A stretch of DNA of 64,000 nucleotides, taken from Akkermansia muciniphila. Lineage in GTDB: Bacteria > Verrucomicrobiota > Verrucomicrobiia > Limisphaerales > BJHT01. The DNA lies in assembly GCA_945861535.1 (NCBI GenBank), contig CAMAUZ010000040.1, positions 1 through 64,000 of the forward strand. The letters run 5' to 3'. The position numbers were made by a program, and so were the translations under genes. The notes under the pieces are model-generated. The model made no database searches. It was not told the DNA's origin and was given only the letters and a program-made list of their open reading frames with translations. This document shows, one piece after another, positions 6,366 through 63,142 of this stretch; the stretch's first letter is position 1, and each line of letters starts with the position of its first letter.

Positions 6366-7838
6366 ATGAAACACACGCAAAAAGCCATCACGCGACGCGC
6401 GTTTGTCGCCGGTTCGTCAGCCGCCGTGGCCGGGGTTCTCATCGACACTCGCGCCAGCGAAGCCGCGCAAGCCGCGGGGCCGTTTCAGGCGATGGGCACG
6501 CGCGCGGGTGAGGTGACCGACACAACGGCCATCGTCTGGGCCCGGCTCACGGCTGCGCCGACGCGCAACCACAGCGGCGTGGTCATTCCCAAGCGCGCGA
6601 AGGACGAGGCGAAGCGGGGCAAGTCGGAATCGAAGGTGAATGTGCCGGTGGAGCAACTCGAAGGGGCGTGTCCCGGTGCGCGAGGGCGTGTGCAGTTGCG
6701 CTACGGCACCCGCGAGGATTTGAGCGATGCGAAGGTGACGGAGATTGCGGTGGCGGCGGCGGAGAATGACTTCACCTGCCACTTCAAGCTGGGCGGACTG
6801 CAGCCCGGGACGGTGTATCATTACGCGAGCGAGCTCCCCGGTGCCGCGAAGGAGACGGCGTTTCGCGGGAGGTTCGAAACGGCACCGGCGCCCGCTGCGC
6901 CGGGCAACCTCCGCTTCTGCGTGATGACCTGCCAGGGCTACCCCGACCGCGGCCATCCCGACGGGCACCCCATTTATCCCGCGATGGGCGAGTTCAAACC
7001 GCAGTTCACCTGCCTCACCGGCGATCTCGTTTACTACGACAACGATGAACCGGTCGCGGTGACGGAGCGGCTCGCGCGCTATCATTGGGAACGAATGTTC
7101 AGCCTGCCGCGATTGATTGAGTTCAATCGGAACCACTCGACCTACTGGCTGAAGGACGATCACGACACTCTCAGCAACGACTCAGGGCCAGGCGCGACGA
7201 TGGGTGAGTTCACCTTTGCGCAGGGACAGAAAATTTTTCAGCAACAGGCGCCGATGAACCACGACGGCCCGAGCTACCGCACCGTCCGCTGGGGCCGCGA
7301 CCTGCAAGTGTGGTTCACCGACGGCCGCGATTTTCGCTCGAAGAACAAATCACCCGACGGCCCGGAAAAAACTATCTGGGGTGCGGAGCAGAAGGCGTGG
7401 TTCAAGCGCACCGTGAAGGAGAGCAACGCGAGGTGGAAAGTGCTCGTCTCGCCCACGCCGCTGGTCGGTCCCGACCGGAAAAACAAGCGGGACAACCACG
7501 CCAACGAAGGCTTCACCCACGAGGGCGACGAACTCCGCGCGTGGCTGAAGGCCCACGTGCCGGACAATTTCTTCGTCATCTGCGGCGACCGCCACTGGCA
7601 ATACCACTCGGTGCATCCCGCGACGGGCGTCCACGAATTCAGCGCCGGCCCGGCGAGCGATGAGCACGCGAGCGGCTCGCCCGGCCACGACCCGAAGATT
7701 CACCAATTCCACCGCGTCCGCGGCGGCTTCCTCGCCGTCACCCTGCGGCGCGAGGGCGCGCAGAGCCGCATCCTCTTCGAGCACCGCGATGTGATGGGGA
7801 AGGTGGTTTACTCGTGGAATGCAGCGCGTCCGATCTGA
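6366..7838 (+). CDS. PhoD-like alkaline phosphatase/metallophosphatase, Tat-exported
   Basis: The frame is open from 5475, but that part is antisense to the pseudopilin gene; the start at 6366 gives 490 residues beginning with a twin-arginine signal (AITRRAFVAGSSAAVAG). An N-terminal PhoD-type fibronectin-like domain (GEVTDTTAIVWARL to YHYASELPG) precedes the calcineurin-like phosphoesterase domain. Metal-site candidates are CVMTCQGYPD, TGDLVYYDND, WLKDDHDTLSNDS, CGDRHW and the final HEFSAGP. The family (alkaline phosphatase D) is a Ca/Fe-dependent phosphodiesterase/phosphomonoesterase working outside the cytoplasmic membrane. Length is normal. The gene runs away from the pseudopilin gene and is alone in its transcription unit. 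Confidence 0.85.
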   Translation: MKHTQKAITRRAFVAGSSAAVAGVLIDTRASEAAQAAGPFQAMGTRAGEVTDTTAIVWARLTAAPTRNHSGVVIPKRAKDEAKRGKSESKVNVPVEQLEGACPGARGRVQLRYGTREDLSDAKVTEIAVAAAENDFTCHFKLGGLQPGTVYHYASELPGAAKETAFRGRFETAPAPAAPGNLRFCVMTCQGYPDRGHPDGHPIYPAMGEFKPQFTCLTGDLVYYDNDEPVAVTERLARYHWERMFSLPRLIEFNRNHSTYWLKDDHDTLSNDSGPGATMGEFTFAQGQKIFQQQAPMNHDGPSYRTVRWGRDLQVWFTDGRDFRSKNKSPDGPEKTIWGAEQKAWFKRTVKESNARWKVLVSPTPLVGPDRKNKRDNHANEGFTHEGDELRAWLKAHVPDNFFVICGDRHWQYHSVHPATGVHEFSAGPASDEHASGSPGHDPKIHQFHRVRGGFLAVTLRREGAQSRILFEHRDVMGKVVYSWNAARPI

Positions 7839-7913
7839 AGTCGCCACGCCTTTGAGCAAGGCCAGCGTGGTAACTCTCCGGAACGGTCCATTCGATTGGC
7901 GAGCTTGCCATGA

Positions 7914-8042
7914 AAAAAGAAAACCGGCGGGAAGATGATCCCCGCCGGTTTCCGTTTTAGAAACGCTTTTGAACCGGTGTCCACGCATGGCGCGGAGAAA
8001 GAACGGTTTGCGCCTCTAACTTTGTCTTGATTCCAATTTAGA
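7914..8042 (-). ncRNA. Candidate tracrRNA of the type II CRISPR locus
   Basis: Reading the minus strand, positions 8038-8020 (AATTGGAATCAAGACAAAG) are complementary to nucleotides 2-20 of the CRISPR repeat read as GCTTTGCCTTGATTCC..., with only one mismatch (at 8025). Going 3' of this anti-repeat there is a GC hairpin (GGCGC...GCGCC, about 8012-7990) and then an 11-bp stem (7951-7921) followed by TCTTTTTT on the minus strand, a strong intrinsic terminator. Anti-repeat, stem-loops and terminator in about 130 nt, divergent from and just upstream of cas9, is the standard tracrRNA arrangement. It also fixes the array transcription direction as minus. The exact 5' end and promoter are not visible; they would lie inside the cas9 5' region. 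Confidence 0.85.
7919..7958 (-). terminator. Intrinsic terminator (tracrRNA end)
   Basis: Arms AAACCGGCGGG (7921-7931) and CCCGCCGGTTT (7941-7951) form an 11-bp stem with a 9-nt loop. On the minus strand the stem is followed by TCTTTTTT (7920-7913), the stronger U tract. On the plus strand it is followed by CCGTTTT, so weak bidirectional use is possible for anything read through from the left. Confidence 0.8.
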
Positions 8043-8067
8043 CGTCCGGAAACTGCCCGTTCATTCC

Positions 8068-11000
8068 ATGAACGACAAGGAACAAATCTCCGGCAGCTCC
8101 AACATTTACGACCTCATGGTCAAAAACTTGATGTCACCAAAAGTAGAAGGCGGCAGCGGGCTTTCAGCAGAAGAAGCAACAAAAATTGCCGTACGCGCTT
8201 TGCAGAAATTGAAGGGAGAATCAGCCGACATCGAACTAGCCTTCGATGTCGGGCACAGCTCCCTCGGCTGGGCCGTGCTGCAAACCACCCCAAACTCTCA
8301 AGCCTCAACCCTCAACTTGCTCGGTTGCGGTGTCGTGACCTTCGGAGCCGACGATTGCCTCGCCAGCAAACGCCGGTTGTTCCGGCGACAGCGTCGGCAT
8401 GCACGGGCCACGCGCCAACGCATTGAGCGTCTGGAGAAACTGCTCGCCCACCTCGGGGTCATGGGCGCGGAGCAATTGAAGTCAAAGCACACTCAGGCCG
8501 GCGGCCACTCCGCACCGTGGCTGCTCGCCGCGCGGGTCCTCGCCAGTAAAGGCGATGCGAAACATCTGCTGACCTGGCCGGAACTGTGGGACGTGCTCCG
8601 CTGGTATGCCCACAACCGCGGCTATGATGGCAACAAACGCTGGAGCGCCGCCGAAGCCGACAGCGAGGCCGCCAAGGAAGATTCTGAAAAGGAGCAAAAC
8701 GCGCGGAGCCTGATGGAGAAGTTTGCCACGACCACCATGGCAGAAACCTTTTGTCAGCATCTCAATCTCGATCCGCTCGGTGCCAAGCAAGCCTCGGCCA
8801 TACGCTTCAAAGGACTCAATGCTGCCTTTCCACGCGAGGGCGTCGAGGCCGAGGTGCGCCGCGTCCTGCAAGCTCACTTCGGCAAGCTGCCCAAGGTGGA
8901 CAGCCAGTTCGAGCAAGCCCTGTTTGACAACTGGCAGGCCATCCCCTGCCCTGACATCAAACTCCCCAAGCGTTTCCAAGGCGGCTTGCTCTTCGGCCAG
9001 CTCGTGCCGCGCTTCGACAACCGCATCATTTCCAAATGCCCCGTCACCGGGCAGAAAGTTCCCTCCCGCAACTGCCCCGAGTTCTTTCGTTTCCGTTGGG
9101 CGATGCAGCTTGCGAACATCCGCGTCGGCAAAATGGGCGACCGTGATCTGCGACCCTTGACGGCAGAGGAGCGCACGAAGCTCGACATCCTCATGCGCGC
9201 CCAAGGCTCGCTCACTCCGGGTGAACTCAAGAAGGCCGTCCGCGATCTCACCGGTTCCGCGCGGGACAATCTCGATACGATGCTTATGCACCCGGACGCC
9301 AAGGACGCCTTGCTGCTGGACCCCGCGCAAAAGCTTGTCACCTCCGACAAGCTCAAGACGCTCTGGCCCCTGCTGCCAGCTCGCATCCAGAAGCGCGCCC
9401 GTGGCCAATGGCGGCGCAGCAAGATGCTCACCTTGGAAAAGCTCCGCGCTCAAGCCGTGCAACTCGGCGAGTCGGTGGATGCCTTCGACGCCGAGGTGCA
9501 ACGCCTGCTCGACTCGGGCAATACCAAGAAAACTCGCAAGCAAGGCCAGCTCACCCGCGAGTCCCTGCTCAAGGAGCCGTTGAAGATTGAGCGCCTCTCC
9601 GGGCGCGCCGCGTTTGCCCGGCACCTGCTCCAACAAGCCCACGTCGAAGTCATGGCGGGCAAGCATCCCAAGGAGGAAGGCGGCTGCCTCTTCGTCACCG
9701 AGCAAATGCGCGCCAAGCAATTGCTGCGCAGCCTCGACGACCAGACCAACAACCACCTTGTCCGCCATCGCCTGCTGATTCTCCAGCGACTCCTCCGCGA
9801 CCTAGTGGCGGACCCCGCCTTCGCCAACGGGGACAAGGCTCGCGTCGCGCAAGTCACCATCGAGGTCAACCGCGACCTGCGCGAGATGTCAGGCAAGACG
9901 GCCAAGGCCATCGCCCAAGACCTCGGCCTGCGCCTGAGCAATCACAAGCACGTCTCCGCCAAGCTCGAAGAAGCCTTCGAGGGCAAAGACGTAACCATGA
10001 CCGCCGGCCTCATTCGCAAGGCCCGCATTGCCGACGACCTCGGGTGGACCTGTCCCTACACCGGCCAACCCTACGACGCCTTCGATCTCATCACGCGCAA
10101 GGTGGACAAGGACCACGTCATTCCGCGCTCGCAGCGTCCCGCCGACGGACTGGATTCCCTCGTCATCACCTTCTCGGAAGTCAACCGGATGAAAGGCCAG
10201 CGCACGGCCTATCAGTTCATCCAGGAGTTCGAGGGGAAGCCCGTCGAGGGATTGGCGAACCTCTCGCTCGTCACGCTCACGCGGTTCAAACAAAGCGTGG
10301 AAGCCTTGGAGTCATGGAAAGGCCACGACGATGACAAGCGCCGCAAGAAGAAGCGCAAGGAACTCCTGCTCCTCCCCAGCTATGAGGACAAAGGCTTCAC
10401 CCCGCGCGACCTCACCGTCACCTCGCAGCTTGTCCGCCTCGGCGCGCAGGTGATTCAGGGATTCTTCACGTCCGGTAGTGAAGCGCTGCTGCACGTCCCT
10501 ACCACGCCGCCGATTACGCTCCCCCGCATCATCTCCCTCCCTGGCGCGGTCACGGGCGCGGTGCGCAAAGGCTGGCGCGTCCTCGGTTGCCTCGCCCAAG
10601 CCGCCCCGCAGATTCTCGATGAACACGGCGACCCCAAAACCAAGACCGACATCCGCAGCCTCACCCATCTGCACCATGCCCTCGACGCCTGCGTGCTCGC
10701 GCTCGCCGCGCATTCCTTCCCGAACAATGGCGCGCTGTGGGAGGCGATGGTGGTCCGCTCGCCCAACGCGCAGCAGAAGCAGCTCCTCCACGCCACCGGC
10801 TTCTACGAGTTCGACCGGGAGGACAAGCCGCACTTCAAGGAGCTGTCCCCCGAACTCAAGAACCAGATTGCCGCCCGCCTCGCCGAGAAGCGCGTGGTGC
10901 AGCACATCCCGGCGGACATGAGCGGCATGAAGGCCGAGGAGAACACCCGCGGCGTGGTGAAGGTAGAAAAAGGCCGCGTCTATCTCCGCCAGCGAACGCG

Positions 11001-12298: not shown

Positions 12299-12584
12299 TA
12301 GAGCCGCGGCGGCGATTCGCTGCCAGCCGTCGCGCCTCGCACCCGCTTTTAGTCACACCCGATGGTACGAGCCAGGCAAAAATCCCATTGCTTACGCCCC
12401 TCATTTTTATTACTACTTCTCCCGCAGCCCCGTAAACCATCCATTCATCGGTTCCTTCGCGCACTTAACCCGCTGGTGAAACGCCAGCACTGCAACGGCG
12501 AGGGGCCGGTTTGACGGGTCGCCCTGAGTGGGGCGGGCCGGGTGGGGTGTCCGCCGGCTGCACCACAGAAAGGAAGCAAAACCT

Positions 12585-13517
12585 ATGAGCGAATACTGGG
12601 AAGACATCTATCACCGGGGCCAGCAGACCATCGGCGTGTGGACCACGTTCGCCCCGGCTTTGACGGTCGGCGAGGTGACGCTGGCCAGCCATACCACGGA
12701 CACCGCGGCGTTGCAGACCAAGGCCAACGAGCGCGACGTGCAGCAGGACACGGTGGACGTGGCCCGCGACGCGCGCGACACAAACCTCCGCCTGATGGAG
12801 CAACTGTGTGTCCGTTTCCCGCGCAAACTGGAGGGCGACCTCGCCCCGGCGGACCCCCTGCACGCGGAGATCGCGGACCTGCGGAACATCAACCCGGATA
12901 CGCCGGACACCGTGGCCGCGCGCACGCGGCGGACCATCAGCCTGTGGAACCGGGTCAACACCCAGCGCGCGGCGGCCGTGCCGCCGCTGCCCGCCTTCAA
13001 CGTGGGCGGCACGCTGGTGGCCGCGCTGGACACCGCGTTGACAAGCCAGAACACGTTGCTGCAAAACATCGAGAACGAGCGCGGGAAGCTGACGCAAAAG
13101 CGGGAGTTGCTCCGCGCGCTGGCCGGGAAGGTGGACCGGAACAACAAGCGCTGGTATGCCGCGTGGGAAGGCGAATTTGCCGATGGTTCGGCGGAACAGG
13201 CGGCGCTCGCGCAAATCGACACGGGGGGCCAGACGCCGCCGCCGTCCGCGTTGGAAATCAACACGGCGGTCGTCAACCCACCCACCCAGGTGGTGCTCTC
13301 GTACGTCCCCGGCGGGGGCGACCACGCCACGTCGTTCAAGCTGGTGTGGAAGATCGAGACGGTGGACGCGGACTTCACGCACGAGGCCGTACTGAACCTC
13401 GCCGGACAGACCGTGACGGTGGCGGGAGCCGCCGGGAAGACGGTGAGCTTCAAGGCCCGCGCGACCAACAGCACCGGCAGCACGGACAGCGCGGTGACAC
13501 AGGTGGTGATGCCATAA
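12585..13517 (+). CDS. Coiled-coil plus fibronectin-III-like protein inside the CRISPR locus
   Basis: The protein has 310 residues from ATG 12585, chosen because AGGAAG lies about 8 bp upstream and the earlier in-frame codons look like repeat DNA. No signal peptide. Residues 1-215 are mostly helical with heptad-like patches (TKANERDVQQDTVDVARDARDTN, then LLQNIENERGKLTQKRELLRAL) and include FPRKLEGDLAPADPLHAEI. Residues about 225-310 form an FnIII-like beta-sandwich (VVLSYVPGGG, FKLVWKIETVD, VSFKARATNSTGSTDSAVTQVVMP). It lies between cas9 and cas1 in the same direction, 96 bp before cas1. I do not recognise it as a Cas family. Proteins of this architecture occur elsewhere in Verrucomicrobiota without CRISPR, so it may simply be a passenger. 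Confidence 0.7.
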   Translation: MSEYWEDIYHRGQQTIGVWTTFAPALTVGEVTLASHTTDTAALQTKANERDVQQDTVDVARDARDTNLRLMEQLCVRFPRKLEGDLAPADPLHAEIADLRNINPDTPDTVAARTRRTISLWNRVNTQRAAAVPPLPAFNVGGTLVAALDTALTSQNTLLQNIENERGKLTQKRELLRALAGKVDRNNKRWYAAWEGEFADGSAEQAALAQIDTGGQTPPPSALEINTAVVNPPTQVVLSYVPGGGDHATSFKLVWKIETVDADFTHEAVLNLAGQTVTVAGAAGKTVSFKARATNSTGSTDSAVTQVVMP

Positions 13518-13613: not shown

Positions 13614-14687
13614 GTGTCCTACCACATTGTCAGCATTGATGCGGCGAACTGCTCCTTGAGCTGTCGCGATGGGCAGCTCACCTGCAAGTCGGCAGAGGGT
13701 GAGAAGAAGCTGCCGATGGAGGACGTGGCGAGCATCATCATCACGAGCTGGTCCGCGCAGATTCACAGCGAGCTGTTCTTGCAGGCGGCGAAGCACGGGG
13801 TGGCGCTCATCATCTGCGAATCGTTCAAACCCGTGTCGCTGGTCCTGCCGGCCAACCGTTCGACGGATACGCTGCTGTCCCGCGCCCTGCTGACCCTGCC
13901 CGAAAAGACCATCACCCGCCTCTGGCAGCGGACCATTGATGCCAAATGCGCCAATCAACTCGCCCTGGCCGAACAACTGGCCCCGGATGACTCGCGGCTA
14001 GCCGCCTTCCGCGCCACGGCGCAGGGCCGGAAGCCACACAAGGAAGCCATCTGCGCGAAGGCCTTCTGGCAAATCTTCGGCACGGTCACCGCCGCCTCTG
14101 GTAGGGATGCGTTGCCGCACGTCCCCAACCTCTCCCCGTCAGCCAGCGATACGATGCGAGCGCCGGACCACGTCGGCGGGGTACCATCGCCTGCCCCAAT
14201 GCCGCCGGAAGGTGGACCCGCGGCGCAACGCGGCCCGACCGGGGATAACTTTACCCGAACCCGCGAGGGGGGCGGATTGAACGATTTGCTCAACTATGGT
14301 TACGCCGTGCTCCTTTCCACCGTCCTCCAGAAGCTTTTCGGCGTCGGCCTCGACCCGACGTGGGGCATCTCACACGCCCCCCGCGAACGCGCCACGCCGC
14401 TGGCCTACGATCTCATGGAGCCGTTTCGCCCGTGCGTGGACTGGCGCGTGTGCCAATGGGTCAAGCAACACCCGGAGCCGAAGGACTGGACCGTGACAAA
14501 GGAGTATCGGCGCTGGGTCACGGGGTTTCCGTTGGAACGCGTGGAATATATGAACTTCACCCTCGATATTCAGGGCGTGATCGAGGGCGTGGTGCGCGGC
14601 TTCCGGCGCGCCGTCCTGGAACACAACGGCAAGTTTTACAAACCTTGGCGGCGGGACGGGGATTGGGAGGTCGAAGATAGCGGATAG
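13614..14687 (+). CDS. cas1: Cas1 integrase with an in-frame insertion
   Basis: The protein has 357 residues from GTG 13614; type II Cas1 is usually about 300. Cas1 inserts new spacers with Cas2. The N-terminal beta domain (MSYHIVSIDAANCSLSCRDGQL, MEDVASIIITSW) is followed by the helical integrase domain. Metal ligands fit Glu144 (HKEAICAKAFW), His254 (WGISHAPRERATPLAYD) and Asp266/Glu269. Residues about 162-208 are a Pro/Gly/Ala-rich block (nt 14097-14237) without counterpart in the family: the normal sequence would run from the FW helix directly to GDNFTRTREGGGLNDLLNYGY. The block includes a palindrome-like GGGATGCG...CGCACGTCCC, suggesting that a REP-like repeat was captured in frame. Catalytic residues are intact, so activity may survive if the block loops out. 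Confidence 0.93.
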   Translation: MSYHIVSIDAANCSLSCRDGQLTCKSAEGEKKLPMEDVASIIITSWSAQIHSELFLQAAKHGVALIICESFKPVSLVLPANRSTDTLLSRALLTLPEKTITRLWQRTIDAKCANQLALAEQLAPDDSRLAAFRATAQGRKPHKEAICAKAFWQIFGTVTAASGRDALPHVPNLSPSASDTMRAPDHVGGVPSPAPMPPEGGPAAQRGPTGDNFTRTREGGGLNDLLNYGYAVLLSTVLQKLFGVGLDPTWGISHAPRERATPLAYDLMEPFRPCVDWRVCQWVKQHPEPKDWTVTKEYRRWVTGFPLERVEYMNFTLDIQGVIEGVVRGFRRAVLEHNGKFYKPWRRDGDWEVEDSG

Positions 14688-14762: not shown

Positions 14763-15098
14763 ATGGACACGGAGAAATTCAAAATGGGTTGGCTGCTCGT
14801 CGCGTTCGATCTGCCGGTAAAATCCAAGAAACAGCGCAAGGCCGCCACCGACTTTCGCCAGTTCCTCTTGGATGACGGCTTCCAAATGATCCAGTTCAGC
14901 GTCTATGCCCGCGCCTGCGTCACCTTCGCCCGCCAGGAAACGCATCTCGATCATGTGAAGAAAAATCTTCCCCCGGAAGGGAGCGTCCGCGCCATTTTTG
15001 TGACCCGCGCCCAATGGGAACGCTCCTTCGTGATCCATGGCTCACCCGCCGAAGAGGAGGAAGCGGAGGATTTACCCGAGCAAATCCAGCTCTGGTAA
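14763..15098 (+). CDS. cas2: Cas2
   Basis: The protein has 111 residues from ATG 14763 (ATG 14784 is an alternative that starts MGWLLVAFDLPV, the usual family N-terminus). The beta-strand WLLVAFDLPV carries the conserved Asp16. The ferredoxin-like fold continues with RQFLLDDGFQMIQFSVYARAC and VRAIFVTRAQWERSFVIHG, and the acidic tail EEEEAEDLPEQIQLW is typical of type II Cas2. It works with Cas1 as the structural core of the integration complex. It lies 75 bp downstream of cas1, in the same operon, and 52 bp before the first CRISPR repeat. Confidence 0.93.
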   Translation: MDTEKFKMGWLLVAFDLPVKSKKQRKAATDFRQFLLDDGFQMIQFSVYARACVTFARQETHLDHVKKNLPPEGSVRAIFVTRAQWERSFVIHGSPAEEEEAEDLPEQIQLW

Positions 15099-15119: not shown

Positions 15120-15162
15120 GGGGCGCAGAGTCAGGCACTTCTGGCCAGTGACTCTGCTCCCC
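15120..15162. repeat. Stem joining the array flank to the first repeat
   Basis: GGGGCGCAGAGTCA (15120-15133) can pair with TGACTCTGCTCCCC (15149-15162; its last 12 bases belong to the first repeat), 13 of 14 positions. In the minus-strand pre-crRNA this would fold the last repeat onto the 3' flank and could end or protect the transcript. Confidence 0.6.
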
Positions 15163-16571
15163 CCGTAATTGGAATCAAGGCAAAGCGTAACGATGCAAGC
15201 ACTATTTTCAGATTTGACTCTGCTCCCCCCGTAATTGGAATCAAGGCAAAGCGTCGTCGGGCGCATTGTCCGCCGGCCGCGTACTCTGCTCCCCCCGTAA
15301 TTGGAATCAAGGCAAAGCTGCTGGCTGGTGCGGTCCTCCCATTCCTCCACTCTGCTCCCCCCGTAATTGGAATCAAGGCAAAGCAAGCCTTCCATGTCAG
15401 CGCGTAGATGGTCGACTCTGCTCCCCCCGTAATTGGAATCAAGGCAAAGCTGGGGCTTGCTCAACACCACCCTGAAAAGCACTCTGCTCCCCCCGTAATT
15501 GGAATCAAGGCAAAGCGCCAGCCGGATGTTTGCCAAGCGTTGACCAACTCTGCTCCCCCCGTAATTGGAATCAAGGCAAAGCGAGGGCGACATCACCCTG
15601 AAACGCTCGCGCACTCTGCTCCCCCCGTAATTGGAATCAAGGCAAAGCGACGCCATCGCCTACCTCCGCGACGTGGCGACTCTGCTCCCCCCGTAATTGG
15701 AATCAAGGCAAAGCACTACCAACGATTGAGAGAATACAGGTTCAACTCTGCTCCCCCCGTAATTGGAATCAAGGCAAAGCGTGGCGATGTGGCGCGAGGT
15801 GCTGCGGGTGACTCTGCTCCCCCCGTAATTGGAATCAAGGCAAAGCAACTGCCTCAAAGACTTCGCCACCGCGCTCACTCTGCTCCCCCCGTAATTGGAA
15901 TCAAGGCAAAGCGTCGTCGGGCGCATTGTCCGCCGGCCGCGTACTCTGCTCCCCCCGTAAGTGGAATCAAGGCAAAGCATCGCTATCGCCCGCGACAAAT
16001 TCGGACCCACTCTGCTCCCCCCGTAATTGGAATCAAGGCAAAGCCACTGGCCTTTCACCTTCCGGCACGCCTAACTCTGCTCCCCCCGTAATTGGAATCA
16101 AGGCAAAGCTGAGAGCACCAGTCTGTCTTTACGCAGCGAACTCTGCTCCCCCCGTAATTGGAATCAAGGCAAAGCCCTCTTCTCAAGTTCAAGGGAATCG
16201 GGCGAACTCTGCTCCCCCCGTAATTGGAATCAAGGCAAAGCACGACCATCGTCGCCCACGACGCCGCCGCCACTCTGCTCCCCCCGTAATTGGAATCAAG
16301 GCAAAGCCCACTCAACGAAGGACGTGGACGCCTATCTACTCTGCTCCCCCCGTAATTGGAATCAAGGCAAAGCTGAGAGCACCAGTCTGTCTTTACGCAG
16401 CGAACTCTGCTCCCCCCGTAATTGGAATCAAGGCAAAGCATGGTGAGAACGAATGCATTGGGCGAGGCGACTCTGCTCCCCCCGTAATTGGAATCAAGGC
16501 AAAGCGGCATCGTTACGCAGGCGGCGGCAACGGCGACTCTGCTCCCCCCGTAATTGGAATCAAGGCAAAGC
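15151..16571 (-). CRISPR. Type II CRISPR array: 22 repeats of 36 bp, 21 spacers
   Basis: Repeats start at 15151 and recur every 66 bp to 16536, with one 65-bp step after the repeat at 16009. Twenty spacers are 30 bp and one (16045-16073) is 29 bp. In the crRNA orientation inferred from the tracrRNA (minus strand) the repeat begins GCTTTGCCTTGATTCC and ends GGGGGGAGCAGAGT. All repeats are identical except the one at 15943, which has T to G at 15961 on the plus strand. Two spacers occur twice: 15253-15282 equals 15913-15942, and 16110-16139 equals 16374-16403. The array lies immediately 3' of cas2. If transcribed on the minus strand, its leader would be on the right (after 16571). Confidence 0.98.
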
Positions 16572-16601
16572 GCATCAGAACGCGCCCTGTTCATTGAACG
16601 T

Positions 16602-16661
16602 CTTCGCTTGCCGCATTTGGAGTCAAGGCTAGGCCGCCTTGACTCCAAATGCGGCAACCGG
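16602..16661. repeat. Degenerate terminal repeat that is one arm of a 22-bp perfect hairpin
   Basis: Exactly about 30 bp after the last repeat, 16602-16633 aligns with the CRISPR repeat (CGCATTTGGAGTCAAGGCTAGGC against CGTAATTGGAATCAAGGCAAAGC over the best 23 bp, 18 identities). The same segment is the left arm of a perfect inverted repeat: 16608-16629 pairs with 16636-16657 around loop TAGGCC, followed by a second small stem and GGTTTTT. It may be a leader-end degenerate repeat, or a REP-like palindrome (TTTGGAGT core) that happens to resemble the repeat. Confidence 0.65.
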
Positions 16662-16942
16662 GTTTTTCGCCGGATTCAGGTAAATCCGTACATCTCTCTC
16701 CATCCTTTGCCCCGCCAAGGCCACCTCAAGATTTGAAAATACCCGACGGTTCAATGAGCGGCTCAACTCCTACAAGAGGCGGCGGGAAGGAGGACGACTG
16801 CGCGGCACCACGGGCGCAATTAAAGGTCGCAGAATCCGCGCGTTGAGCATCACACTGTTCCATCCTGCGACCGGGCGCGGCGCGAGCAGCAGACGCCCAC
16901 CGTTCAACTTATAATCCGAGACAACCGCGACGCCTCCAAGCC
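16662..16942. other. Possible CRISPR leader region, otherwise no gene seen
   Basis: If the array is transcribed on the minus strand, its promoter and leader should lie here. The segment 16680-16760 is somewhat richer in A/T than its surroundings, but I cannot point to clear -35/-10 boxes. No ORF with coding character is present. Confidence 0.35.
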
Positions 16943-61162: not shown

Positions 61163-61505
61163 GGGTGACTCTTGGGCGCAGCTCAGTTTCTTGCACCCCC
61201 TCTGGTTCCCAGCCCCAGCCCAGCGGGCGAAAGACAATAGCCCAGCACTTCAGTGCTGGGTCCGCGGTGGTGGCGCACCAAGTCCCGGCAGGGACGCCAG
61301 AAACGTCGCGCCGACGCCGCTGTCGTCCTTGCCTGCCCCCGTTTGGAGTCCCGCCTTTAGGCGGATCGGCGGGTTCAAGCAATCGGGCCGCATAAATGCG
61401 GAACTCCAAACCCAGGACCAGCGTTCCGCAGGGGCAGTGTCAAGCTGCGCCCCTTTTGGCGAGAAATTGCGTTGGAAAACCCCGCCGCCCGAGTAGCGTT
61501 TCGCC
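61163..61505. repeat. REP-like palindromes
   Basis: CCCAGCACTTCAGTGCTGGG (61241-61260) is a perfect hairpin also found, slightly changed, at 62709-62728 and 62833-62852. GTTTGGAGTCCCGCC (about 61340) and GGAACTCCAAAC (about 61397-61408) bound a TTTGGAGT-type palindrome with internal GCCGCATAAATGCGG. No gene. Confidence 0.65.
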
Positions 61506-61733
61506 ATGAGCACCGCCGCTGAAATCGAGACCGCATTAAAGGGACTCCCGCTCCAGGATGCCCACGCGGTTGCCCAATGGTTGCAGACCTATCTGGGCCA
61601 GCAAATCGTCACTGACACGCCGCCGCCGGCACCTGTCCGCCTGCCTGACTACGCGGCTCGCAGGCGAAGCATCTTCGGGGACAAGGTGCTGCCCAACATG
61701 GTGCTGCTGGGACGCGAACAAGAACGCTGGTGA
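61506..61733 (+). CDS. Small antitoxin-like protein paired with a broken PIN toxin
   Basis: The protein has 75 residues. The N-terminal helix pair (STAAEIETALKGLPLQDAHAVAQWLQTYL) and the basic/aromatic tail (LPDYAARRRSIFGDKVLPNMVLLGREQERW) fit short antitoxins, where the tail wraps the PIN toxin. The stop overlaps the GTG start of the following PIN gene (GTGA), the usual type II toxin-antitoxin layout. Because the toxin is disrupted, this is probably a leftover antitoxin; the ORF itself is intact. Confidence 0.65.
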   Translation: MSTAAEIETALKGLPLQDAHAVAQWLQTYLGQQIVTDTPPPAPVRLPDYAARRRSIFGDKVLPNMVLLGREQERW

Positions 61734-62168
61734 GCATCTACACCGATACCAGTGTCCTGTTCTCGCTGTATGGGACCGACGCGAATTCCCCCCCAAGCCG
61801 ATGCTTAGCGGGAGGCAAATCCCACTCCCCTTGATATCACGGGCTTGCAGCGAGTCGAACTTCGGAACGCGCTCGCGCTCGCCGTGTTTCAGCAACGACT
61901 GACTCCGTCCGAAGCGCACGCGGCCTGGCAGGAGGTTCAGCGTGATCTGGCGACGGGGTTGCTGATATCAAGGCCGGAGCCATGGACGGAAGTGGTCGGT
62001 AGGGCGGAGACTTTGGTTCGGGATTACAGCGAAACTGTCGGCAGTCGAAGCTTGGATATTCTGCATGTGGCGACCACTTTAGTTTGGGGTACAACCACAT
62101 TTTGCACCTTCGACATCCGGCAAACCAAACTGGCTCGACTCGCGGGACTCCAAGTCCAACCGCTGTGA
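61730..62168 (+). pseudogene. VapC-like PIN toxin, disrupted by a frameshift and a stop
   Basis: GTG 61730 starts MSIYTDTSVLFSLYGTDANS, with the first acidic residue of the PIN site (YTDTS). After a run of seven C (61789-61795) the frame ends in TGA. Assuming six C, reading passes to the frame that later encodes GLQRVELRNALALAVFQQRLTP...VGSRSLDILHVATTLVWG...TFCTFDIRQTKLARLAGL (the second half of a PIN domain, with VELRN, DILH and TFD), but one in-frame TAG remains at the position where TGG is expected (QADA-stop-REANP). So at least two lesions are present. It cannot make a full-length toxin. Confidence 0.75.
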
Positions 62169-62189
62169 AGACTCTCGACTAACTCCGCC

Positions 62190-62351
62190 ATGCGACTCCG
62201 TCGCCTCCTACCCCTGCTAATCCTCACCGCCAGCACCAGCGGCTGCCTCACTCCCCTGAGCTTCGAGCAGAACTCCGATTGGCGATGGCGCCAAACCGTG
62301 CCGGGGCATCACCCAATCAACTCCGAAGACCCCGACCGCCGCGACCGGTGA
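62190..62351 (+). CDS. Tiny lipoprotein (53 residues)
   Basis: ATG 62190 opens MRLRRLLPLLILTASTSGC, a compact lipoprotein signal (basic start, hydrophobic core, lipobox TSGC with Cys19), then 34 residues LTPLSFEQNSDWRWRQTVPGHHPINSEDPDRRDR ending at TGA 62351. Small entericidin-like or surface lipoproteins have this form. It lies between the broken toxin and the DUF433 gene. No homology recognised; the support is the signal alone. Confidence 0.5.
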   Translation: MRLRRLLPLLILTASTSGCLTPLSFEQNSDWRWRQTVPGHHPINSEDPDRRDR

Positions 62352-62389
62352 CAGTCGCAGCGCATCGCGCCACCCGGTAGCCTGCCGCC

Positions 62390-62650
62390 ATGACAACCGC
62401 CACCGCCTATCGCTATCTCGTGACTACTCCCGGTATCCGTGGGGGACATCCGCGCATCGAGGACACGCGCATCGGAGTGCATGACGTGATTGGTTTGCTC
62501 CAACACGGCGAAACGGTGGACTCAGTCACCCGCTCCTTTCCCGGTGTCACCCGCGCGCAAGTCTATGGGTGCCTGGCCTATTACGAAGACCACACGGCGG
62601 AGATAGACTTGCTGATTGCCCGCCAGATGGTTGCCGCGTCCGTATCTTAG
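62390..62650 (+). CDS. DUF433 (antitoxin-like) protein
   Basis: The protein has 86 residues. The core TPGIRGGHPRIEDTRIGVHDVIGLLQHGETVDSVTRSFPGVTRAQVYGCLAYYEDHTAEID is the DUF433 motif (GG.P.I.GTRI..., winged helix-turn-helix). DUF433 proteins usually sit upstream of a DUF5615 PIN-like nuclease and serve as its antitoxin. Here the tail LIARQMVAASVS is followed directly by REP-like DNA and no toxin gene, so it is an orphan or a remnant of a lost pair. Confidence 0.8.
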   Translation: MTTATAYRYLVTTPGIRGGHPRIEDTRIGVHDVIGLLQHGETVDSVTRSFPGVTRAQVYGCLAYYEDHTAEIDLLIARQMVAASVS

Positions 62651-63142
62651 TTGCTTGCCACAATGTGAGTGTGACTCGCCGCAGTTCCGCAGGGACGACC
62701 GAGAATAGCCCAGCACTTGAGTGCTGGGTCTGCGTCGGGGCCGATGCCAAGTCCCGTCAGGGACGAAAGAAATCGTGCGCCGTCCCCGCCTCTGTCGTCC
62801 CTGACGGGACTTTCTGGTTCACCGGTCGCCAACCCAGCACTGAAGTGCTGGGCTATTTTCGGTCGTCCCTGCGGGACTCTCGGAGCGCGGGCGTCCCCTC
62901 CGCTCACGGCGTACGGAGGTCGGAAATGGTGGGCGAGACCGGGAGTTTCGGTTCCTCATGCAGTGCCCATTTCTGCACGCCGCGCAAAGCGCGCCCCGTC
63001 GTGGTTTGGTCGCGCTGAGCGGGCGGGAGGCCCGAGTCCCGACTGCATCGGAAACCGCCAAGGAACCTCGCCCGCGAGACGGAGCGGGTCATTTTCCGAG
63101 GTTCTTGTCCTTTGATGTCCGTCGTGGTTTCAACGGCATTTT
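62651..63142. repeat. REP-like composite, no gene
   Basis: 62690-62730 and 62830-62880 form an inverted pair (ACGACCGAGAATAGCCCAGC against GCTGGGCTATTTTCGGTCGT, with the AGTGCTGGG hairpins inside). A second inner pair is GTCCCGTCAGGGACGA/TCGTCCCTGACGGGAC. 62950-63110 is GC-rich sequence with CGCGCCCCGTCGTGGTTTGG-like motifs and no coding character. Confidence 0.65.

Follow-up and report, generated by a model that had tools for sequence, protein, structure and literature searches.

A 64,000-nucleotide stretch of DNA from Akkermansia muciniphila (contig CAMAUZ010000040.1, positions 1 to 64,000; hereafter the window) carries a CRISPR–Cas locus in the order cas9, an ORF without a family match, cas1, cas2 and array. 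Which RNA would partner with the transcripts of this array, and from which strand would those transcripts be read? An initial annotation placed a tracrRNA gene on the minus strand, divergent from cas9, and proposed that crRNAs are read towards cas2. We examined this locus alongside its relatives, and the features discussed below are collected in Table 1.

Table 1 Features of the CRISPR–Cas locus and its putative tracrRNA gene.
Feature	Position in window	Strand	Basis or remarks
Putative tracrRNA gene, ~124 nt	7913..8036	minus	covariance-model match and terminator
Intrinsic terminator	7913..7953	minus	stem 7953–7919 and TTTTTT
Outer helix, 3′ arm GCGTT	7962..7966	minus	covariation, 30 sequences
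Apical GC hairpin TCCGCGC-CAT-GCGTGGA	7980..7996	minus	predicted fold
Outer helix, 5′ arm GGCGC	8010..8014	minus	covariation, 30 sequences
Conserved 16-nt anti-repeat GGAATCAAGACAAAGU	8019..8034	minus	unique-match search and covariation
Region where the tracrRNA promoter must lie	8035..8070	minus	family −10/−35 positions; window copy weak, TAAATT at −6
cas9, 1,148 aa	8068..11514	plus	TIGR01865, 190 bits; HNH and RuvC_III
cas1, type II, with inserted segment	13614..14687	plus	TIGR03639, 137 bits
cas2	14763..15098	plus	TIGR01573
CRISPR array, 22 full 36-nt repeats, spacers ~30 nt	15151..16572	minus (crRNA sense)	repeat GCTTTGCCTTGATTCCAATTACGGGGGGAGCAGAGT
Extra (oldest, degenerate) repeat	16601..16635	minus	
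22-bp hairpin of extra repeat and upstream sequence	16608..16657	minus	

A minimal set of cas genes

Among the ORFs scanned, the locus has cas9, cas1 and cas2 without csn2 or cas4, and the only extra ORF lies at 12528–13517. The Cas9 protein scores above the cut-off of TIGR01865 and below that of the Cas9d model (134 versus 375). Many of its structurally solved relatives, N. meningitidis Cas9 for example, are II-C proteins of about 1,080 residues. The cas9 start codon is backed by relatives that have the same spacing and begin MKDKQK or MKAKEK, versus MNDKEQ in the window.

Several peculiarities of the window locus were noted in passing. The N-terminus of its Cas9 (8068–8223) is about 40 residues longer than in relatives. 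Within its cas1, an in-frame insertion of about 49 amino acids (approximately 14088–14235) is missing from relatives and contains a sequence with seven copies in the genome at up to three mismatches. The 329-residue product of the extra ORF has no Pfam or NCBIfam match, and cas9 and cas1 are close together in most relatives. Elsewhere in the window, three matches to the Acido-Lenti-1 RNA (Rfam RF01687) fall within 1.7 kb on both strands (61217–62878).

A conserved RNA gene divergent from cas9

The minus strand at 8038–8020 holds an anti-repeat, AATTGGAATCAAGACAAAG, of which 18 of 19 nucleotides pair with the repeat, as the initial annotation had reported. It matches the repeat as written on the plus strand (crRNA-antisense) at all but one base. 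With up to three mismatches allowed, it is present only at this site and in the array repeats (one or two mismatches), where chance would predict no occurrence. The repeat motif TTGGARTCAAGG is likewise confined in the rest of the genome to the array, the terminal hairpin of the array and two isolated sites.

Fold prediction, covariation and a terminator scan reveal both a structured 3′ body and an intrinsic terminator on the same gene. The GC hairpin described earlier proves to be the apical part (7996–7980) of a nested stem-loop, closed by an outer helix whose arms covary among relatives (types include AACGC/GCGTT, AAGGC/GCCTT, AACCC/GGGTT and AATGC/GCATT). RNAalifold recovers only this outer helix from the full alignment because length changes leave the inner stems misaligned. 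The terminator also described in that annotation has a stem of 15 pairs, nine of them G-C, followed by TTTTTT; it is the sole terminator-like site within 7800–8300, although it is not significant by itself since shuffled sequences average 0.6 such sites. This T-run sets the 3′ end of the gene, and we infer the 5′ end.

Seven named records (six verrucomicrobial, one binned as Desulfocapsa) also contain the Cas9 of the window, as do 31 of 384 class genomes. In every locus for which the region is covered, an anti-repeat lies just upstream of cas9 on the opposite strand. A covariance model of 77 positions (R1), built from 30 of the RNAs in these loci, matches the window at 8035–7959 with 75 bits and finds 37 of the 384 class genomes, including all 31 that bear this Cas9. 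Because most of these 31 genomes trained the model, the fair test is a search of the phylum, and this out-of-sample search matched eight genomes of other classes. In all eight, cas9 homology starts on the opposite strand, no more than about 130 nt away, so that linkage of the RNA to cas9 holds for 31 of 31 class genomes with this Cas9 and for 8 of 8 outside the class. These matches bear out the tracrRNA identity that was first proposed. No Rfam tracrRNA model matches the locus at or above the gathering threshold, and the Rfam matches it does receive are at chance level and to terminator-like families only; by score, the RNA is thus not placed in an Rfam family.

The anti-repeat might instead be a stray, decayed CRISPR repeat that happens to sit near an unrelated terminator, given that only one base distinguishes it from the array repeat and that orphan copies without cas9 occur (L078–L083). 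A stray repeat would not account for a conserved downstream body of about 60 nt that 31 class genomes and eight others share, with covarying stems and always beside cas9, and the single differing base is constant across the phylum. We consider this origin extremely improbable. The orphan copies come from six class genomes in which no intact cas9 lies nearby, some of them retaining just a short piece of the gene. Those of L080 and L081 seem to have an intact RNA and terminator but neither cas9 nor array, and the L080 genome has one isolated repeat-like 15-mer.

The locus is very probably a type II-C tracrRNA gene, the product of which would pair with minus-strand transcripts of the array. The features that point to this reading are present in the DNA itself: covarying pairing with the repeat, a terminator, a divergent position and conservation with this Cas9. 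From these features we infer transcription, RNase III processing and loading onto Cas9. The predicted transcript would start near 8036 on the minus strand with the 16-nt anti-repeat, continue into the nested stem-loop, which probably docks on Cas9, and end at the terminator (7953–7913). Its anti-repeat would pair with the 5′ half of the repeat (GCUUUG-C-CUUGAUUCC with GGAAUCAAG-A-CAAAGU) in array transcripts made from the minus strand towards cas2, after which cleavage of the duplex by RNase III would leave a dual RNA for Cas9 to use.

A constant mismatch within a coevolving duplex

Repeat positions 1–6 and 8–16 are paired in at least 27 of the 28 loci that have both parts. Compensatory double changes occur at positions 2 (C-G/U-A), 13 (U-A/A-U) and 16 (C-G/A-U). 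Of 476 repeat:anti-repeat cells, true partners pair in 426, more than in any of 5,000 reshuffles (highest value 415). For the outer helix of the body the count is 148 of 150 cells, with shuffles reaching 141 at most. Both statistics overstate independence because the shuffles ignore phylogeny.

Position 7 is the exception to this pairing. Here, repeat C7 stands opposite an A of the anti-repeat (8025 in the window), and the same C-A mismatch is found in 28 of 28 loci and in six new ones (L091–L095 and L097), giving 34 of 34. It divides a lower stem of 6 bp from an upper stem of 9 bp. Indeed, L095 (GCTTTGCCATAGTTC/GAACTATGACAAAG) and L097 (GCTTTGCCACAGTTC/GAACTGTGACAAAG) have much of the upper stem swapped on both sides and keep the mismatch. 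Since the C-A persists while neighbouring pairs coevolve, it appears best explained as kept by selection, and by analogy with the bulge of other Cas9 guides it may serve as a recognition feature. The tracrRNA:crRNA duplex of Campylobacter jejuni is uninterrupted, whereas the duplex predicted here is broken by this constant mismatch.

Beyond repeat position 16, pairing is not conserved among relatives. The additional AATT match in the window (8038–8035) thus lies outside the conserved anti-repeat and may instead form part of a −10 element, with TAAATT in place of the usual −10, an arrangement seen in the window and in L017.

A putative family promoter next to the anti-repeat

Across 34 loci, a −10-like hexamer at −12 to −7 and a −35-like hexamer at −35 to −30 relative to the anti-repeat, separated by 17 nt, each score above all of 1,000 shuffles. 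These elements resemble a good sigma-70-like promoter that ends at the anti-repeat, and their position and spacing put the 5′ end of the RNA there. In the window, the sequences at the two places (ATGGAA and GACGTC) do not fit, and no consensus promoter was found in this copy.

The initial annotation held that the promoter must overlap the 5′ coding region of cas9. This holds only for the short-gap loci (approximately 14 of 34), in which the −35 hexamer reaches the cas9 start or its first codons; with cas9 starting 18–28 nt away, the hexamer falls inside those codons, and elsewhere it does not. With the ATG of the window lying 33 nt away from the anti-repeat, a −35 element there would touch the start codon, but this copy has no consensus promoter. 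As a general statement, the earlier claim was overstated. A candidate cas9 promoter within the tracrRNA gene was set aside: the −10-like signal on the plus strand falls on bases that are conserved in the tracrRNA and is uninterpretable.

Interlocking promoters could also mean that the RNA is mainly a regulator of cas9, acting as a natural single guide or as an antisense to the cas9 leader. The distance of 33 nt to the cas9 ATG is suggestive of such a role, and a cas9 transcript begun inside the tracrRNA gene would include a perfect complement to the anti-repeat and match it better than the real repeat does. The long single-guide form requires a second repeat-like copy upstream on the minus strand; none is present there, and this form was rejected. 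The family promoter, moreover, places the start at the anti-repeat. We regard a chiefly regulatory RNA as very improbable, and a tracrRNA for the array is the reading retained below.

Array transcripts are predicted to run towards cas2

From the anti-repeat it follows that crRNAs would be read from the minus strand, towards cas2. A second indication comes from the last six bases of the repeat, which in crRNA sense are −10-like (A in 28 of 28, A in 26 of 28 and T in 26 of 28 at positions 2, 4 and 6), with a family mean of 3.98 bits, whereas the opposite strand reaches 0.18 at its best site. Repeats in C. jejuni each contain a −10 box in their 3′ part that drives single crRNAs (PMC3656092); a −10-like box ends the repeats here too, and its version in the window, CAGAGT, is weak. 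Furthermore, the degenerate extra repeat is located at the cas2-distal end of the array, and published II-C arrays acquire new spacers on their cas2 side, are read towards cas2 and have their oldest, often mutated extra repeat opposite (PMC6008519, PMC12080349). Conserved pairing, repeat ends, the degenerate repeat and published architecture together support the minus-strand orientation put forward at the outset, which remains a prediction from sequence.

Transcription from the plus strand, away from cas2, would leave the minus-strand element without a function as the working tracrRNA. By II-A-like logic, the cas2-distal position of the degenerate terminal repeat would mark the 3′ end of such a transcript, and the hairpin followed by CCGGGTTTTT (plus strand, 16608–16667) could terminate it. 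This orientation, however, needs an anti-repeat that pairs with the other half of the repeat, and none was found. It also runs against the II-C pattern cited above and against the −10-like repeat ends, which occur in minus sense only. In L066 and L068, all that is left of the extra repeat is its −10 half, about 30 nt before the repeat of the oldest spacer and adjoining that spacer; the tracrRNA-binding half is gone. Plus-strand transcription is thus very improbable, and we keep to the minus-strand orientation.

Protospacers for a PAM-based orientation yielded no convincing match in phages or plasmids (weak matches of 27–32 nt only), and six spacers searched against viral contigs gave none. Two spacers each occur twice in the array (in crRNA order, 4 = 8 and 11 = 21), which suggests internal duplication. 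The array of L097 is inverted after cas2, so position alone cannot give orientation, and those of L012 and L073 lie upstream of cas9.

A hairpin that would sequester the extra repeat

The extra repeat GCCTAGCCTTGACTCCAAATGCGGCAAGCGAAGAC (crRNA sense) forms a perfect 22-bp stem with the sequence adjacent to it upstream, with a predicted fold of −43.3 kcal/mol. This stem takes in repeat positions 6–16, which are needed for tracrRNA binding, and the anti-repeat is predicted to pair with the extra repeat at −14.5 kcal/mol, compared with −23.9 kcal/mol for a normal repeat. Feussner et al. reported finding no II-C system in which upstream sequence forms a hairpin with the extra repeat (PMC12080349). 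Among relatives, a small counterpart (GGTCGCAAAATGCGACC) occurs in L054, whose extra repeat is mutated, and in L012 a long hairpin forms within the guide part. With one strong case and one weak case, we treat the hairpin as a lead. A dispersed repeat as the origin of this hairpin at 16.6 kb was ruled out, since both arms are found nowhere else.

A combined proposal is that this II-C array silences its extra repeat by the 22-bp hairpin, as II-A and VI-B arrays do, and that the C-A mismatch, selected phylum-wide, marks a boundary between lower and upper stem that is read by this Cas9 lineage. We offer the two together as a tentative idea that is somewhat doubtful at present.

Relation to known systems

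The layout resembles that of the II-C system of Riemerella anatipestifer RA-CH-2, in which a tracrRNA upstream of cas9 is followed by cas9, cas1, cas2 and the array; the repeat and tracrRNA sequences differ, and repeats are 47 bp there rather than 36 nt (PMC6008519). The minimal type II (II-C) system of C. jejuni likewise has three cas genes and a tracrRNA:crRNA duplex, which in that organism is RNase III-dependent (PMC3656092). Work on extraneous crRNAs in II-C systems describes a mutated extra repeat at the oldest end and hairpins upstream of the array, to which the guide hairpin of L012 corresponds; in contrast, the hairpin in the window contains the extra repeat itself (22 bp, positions 6–16), which is the II-A/VI-B arrangement (PMC12080349).

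The tracrRNA is ordinary in kind. The locus nevertheless raises the questions of why one mismatch stays while its neighbours co-change, and whether extraneous crRNA in a II-C array can be countered by a leader-type hairpin. For a Verrucomicrobia-wide Cas9 lineage without an Rfam tracrRNA match, the analysis provides a usable definition of the dual RNA, comprising the repeat strand, anti-repeat, scaffold and terminator.
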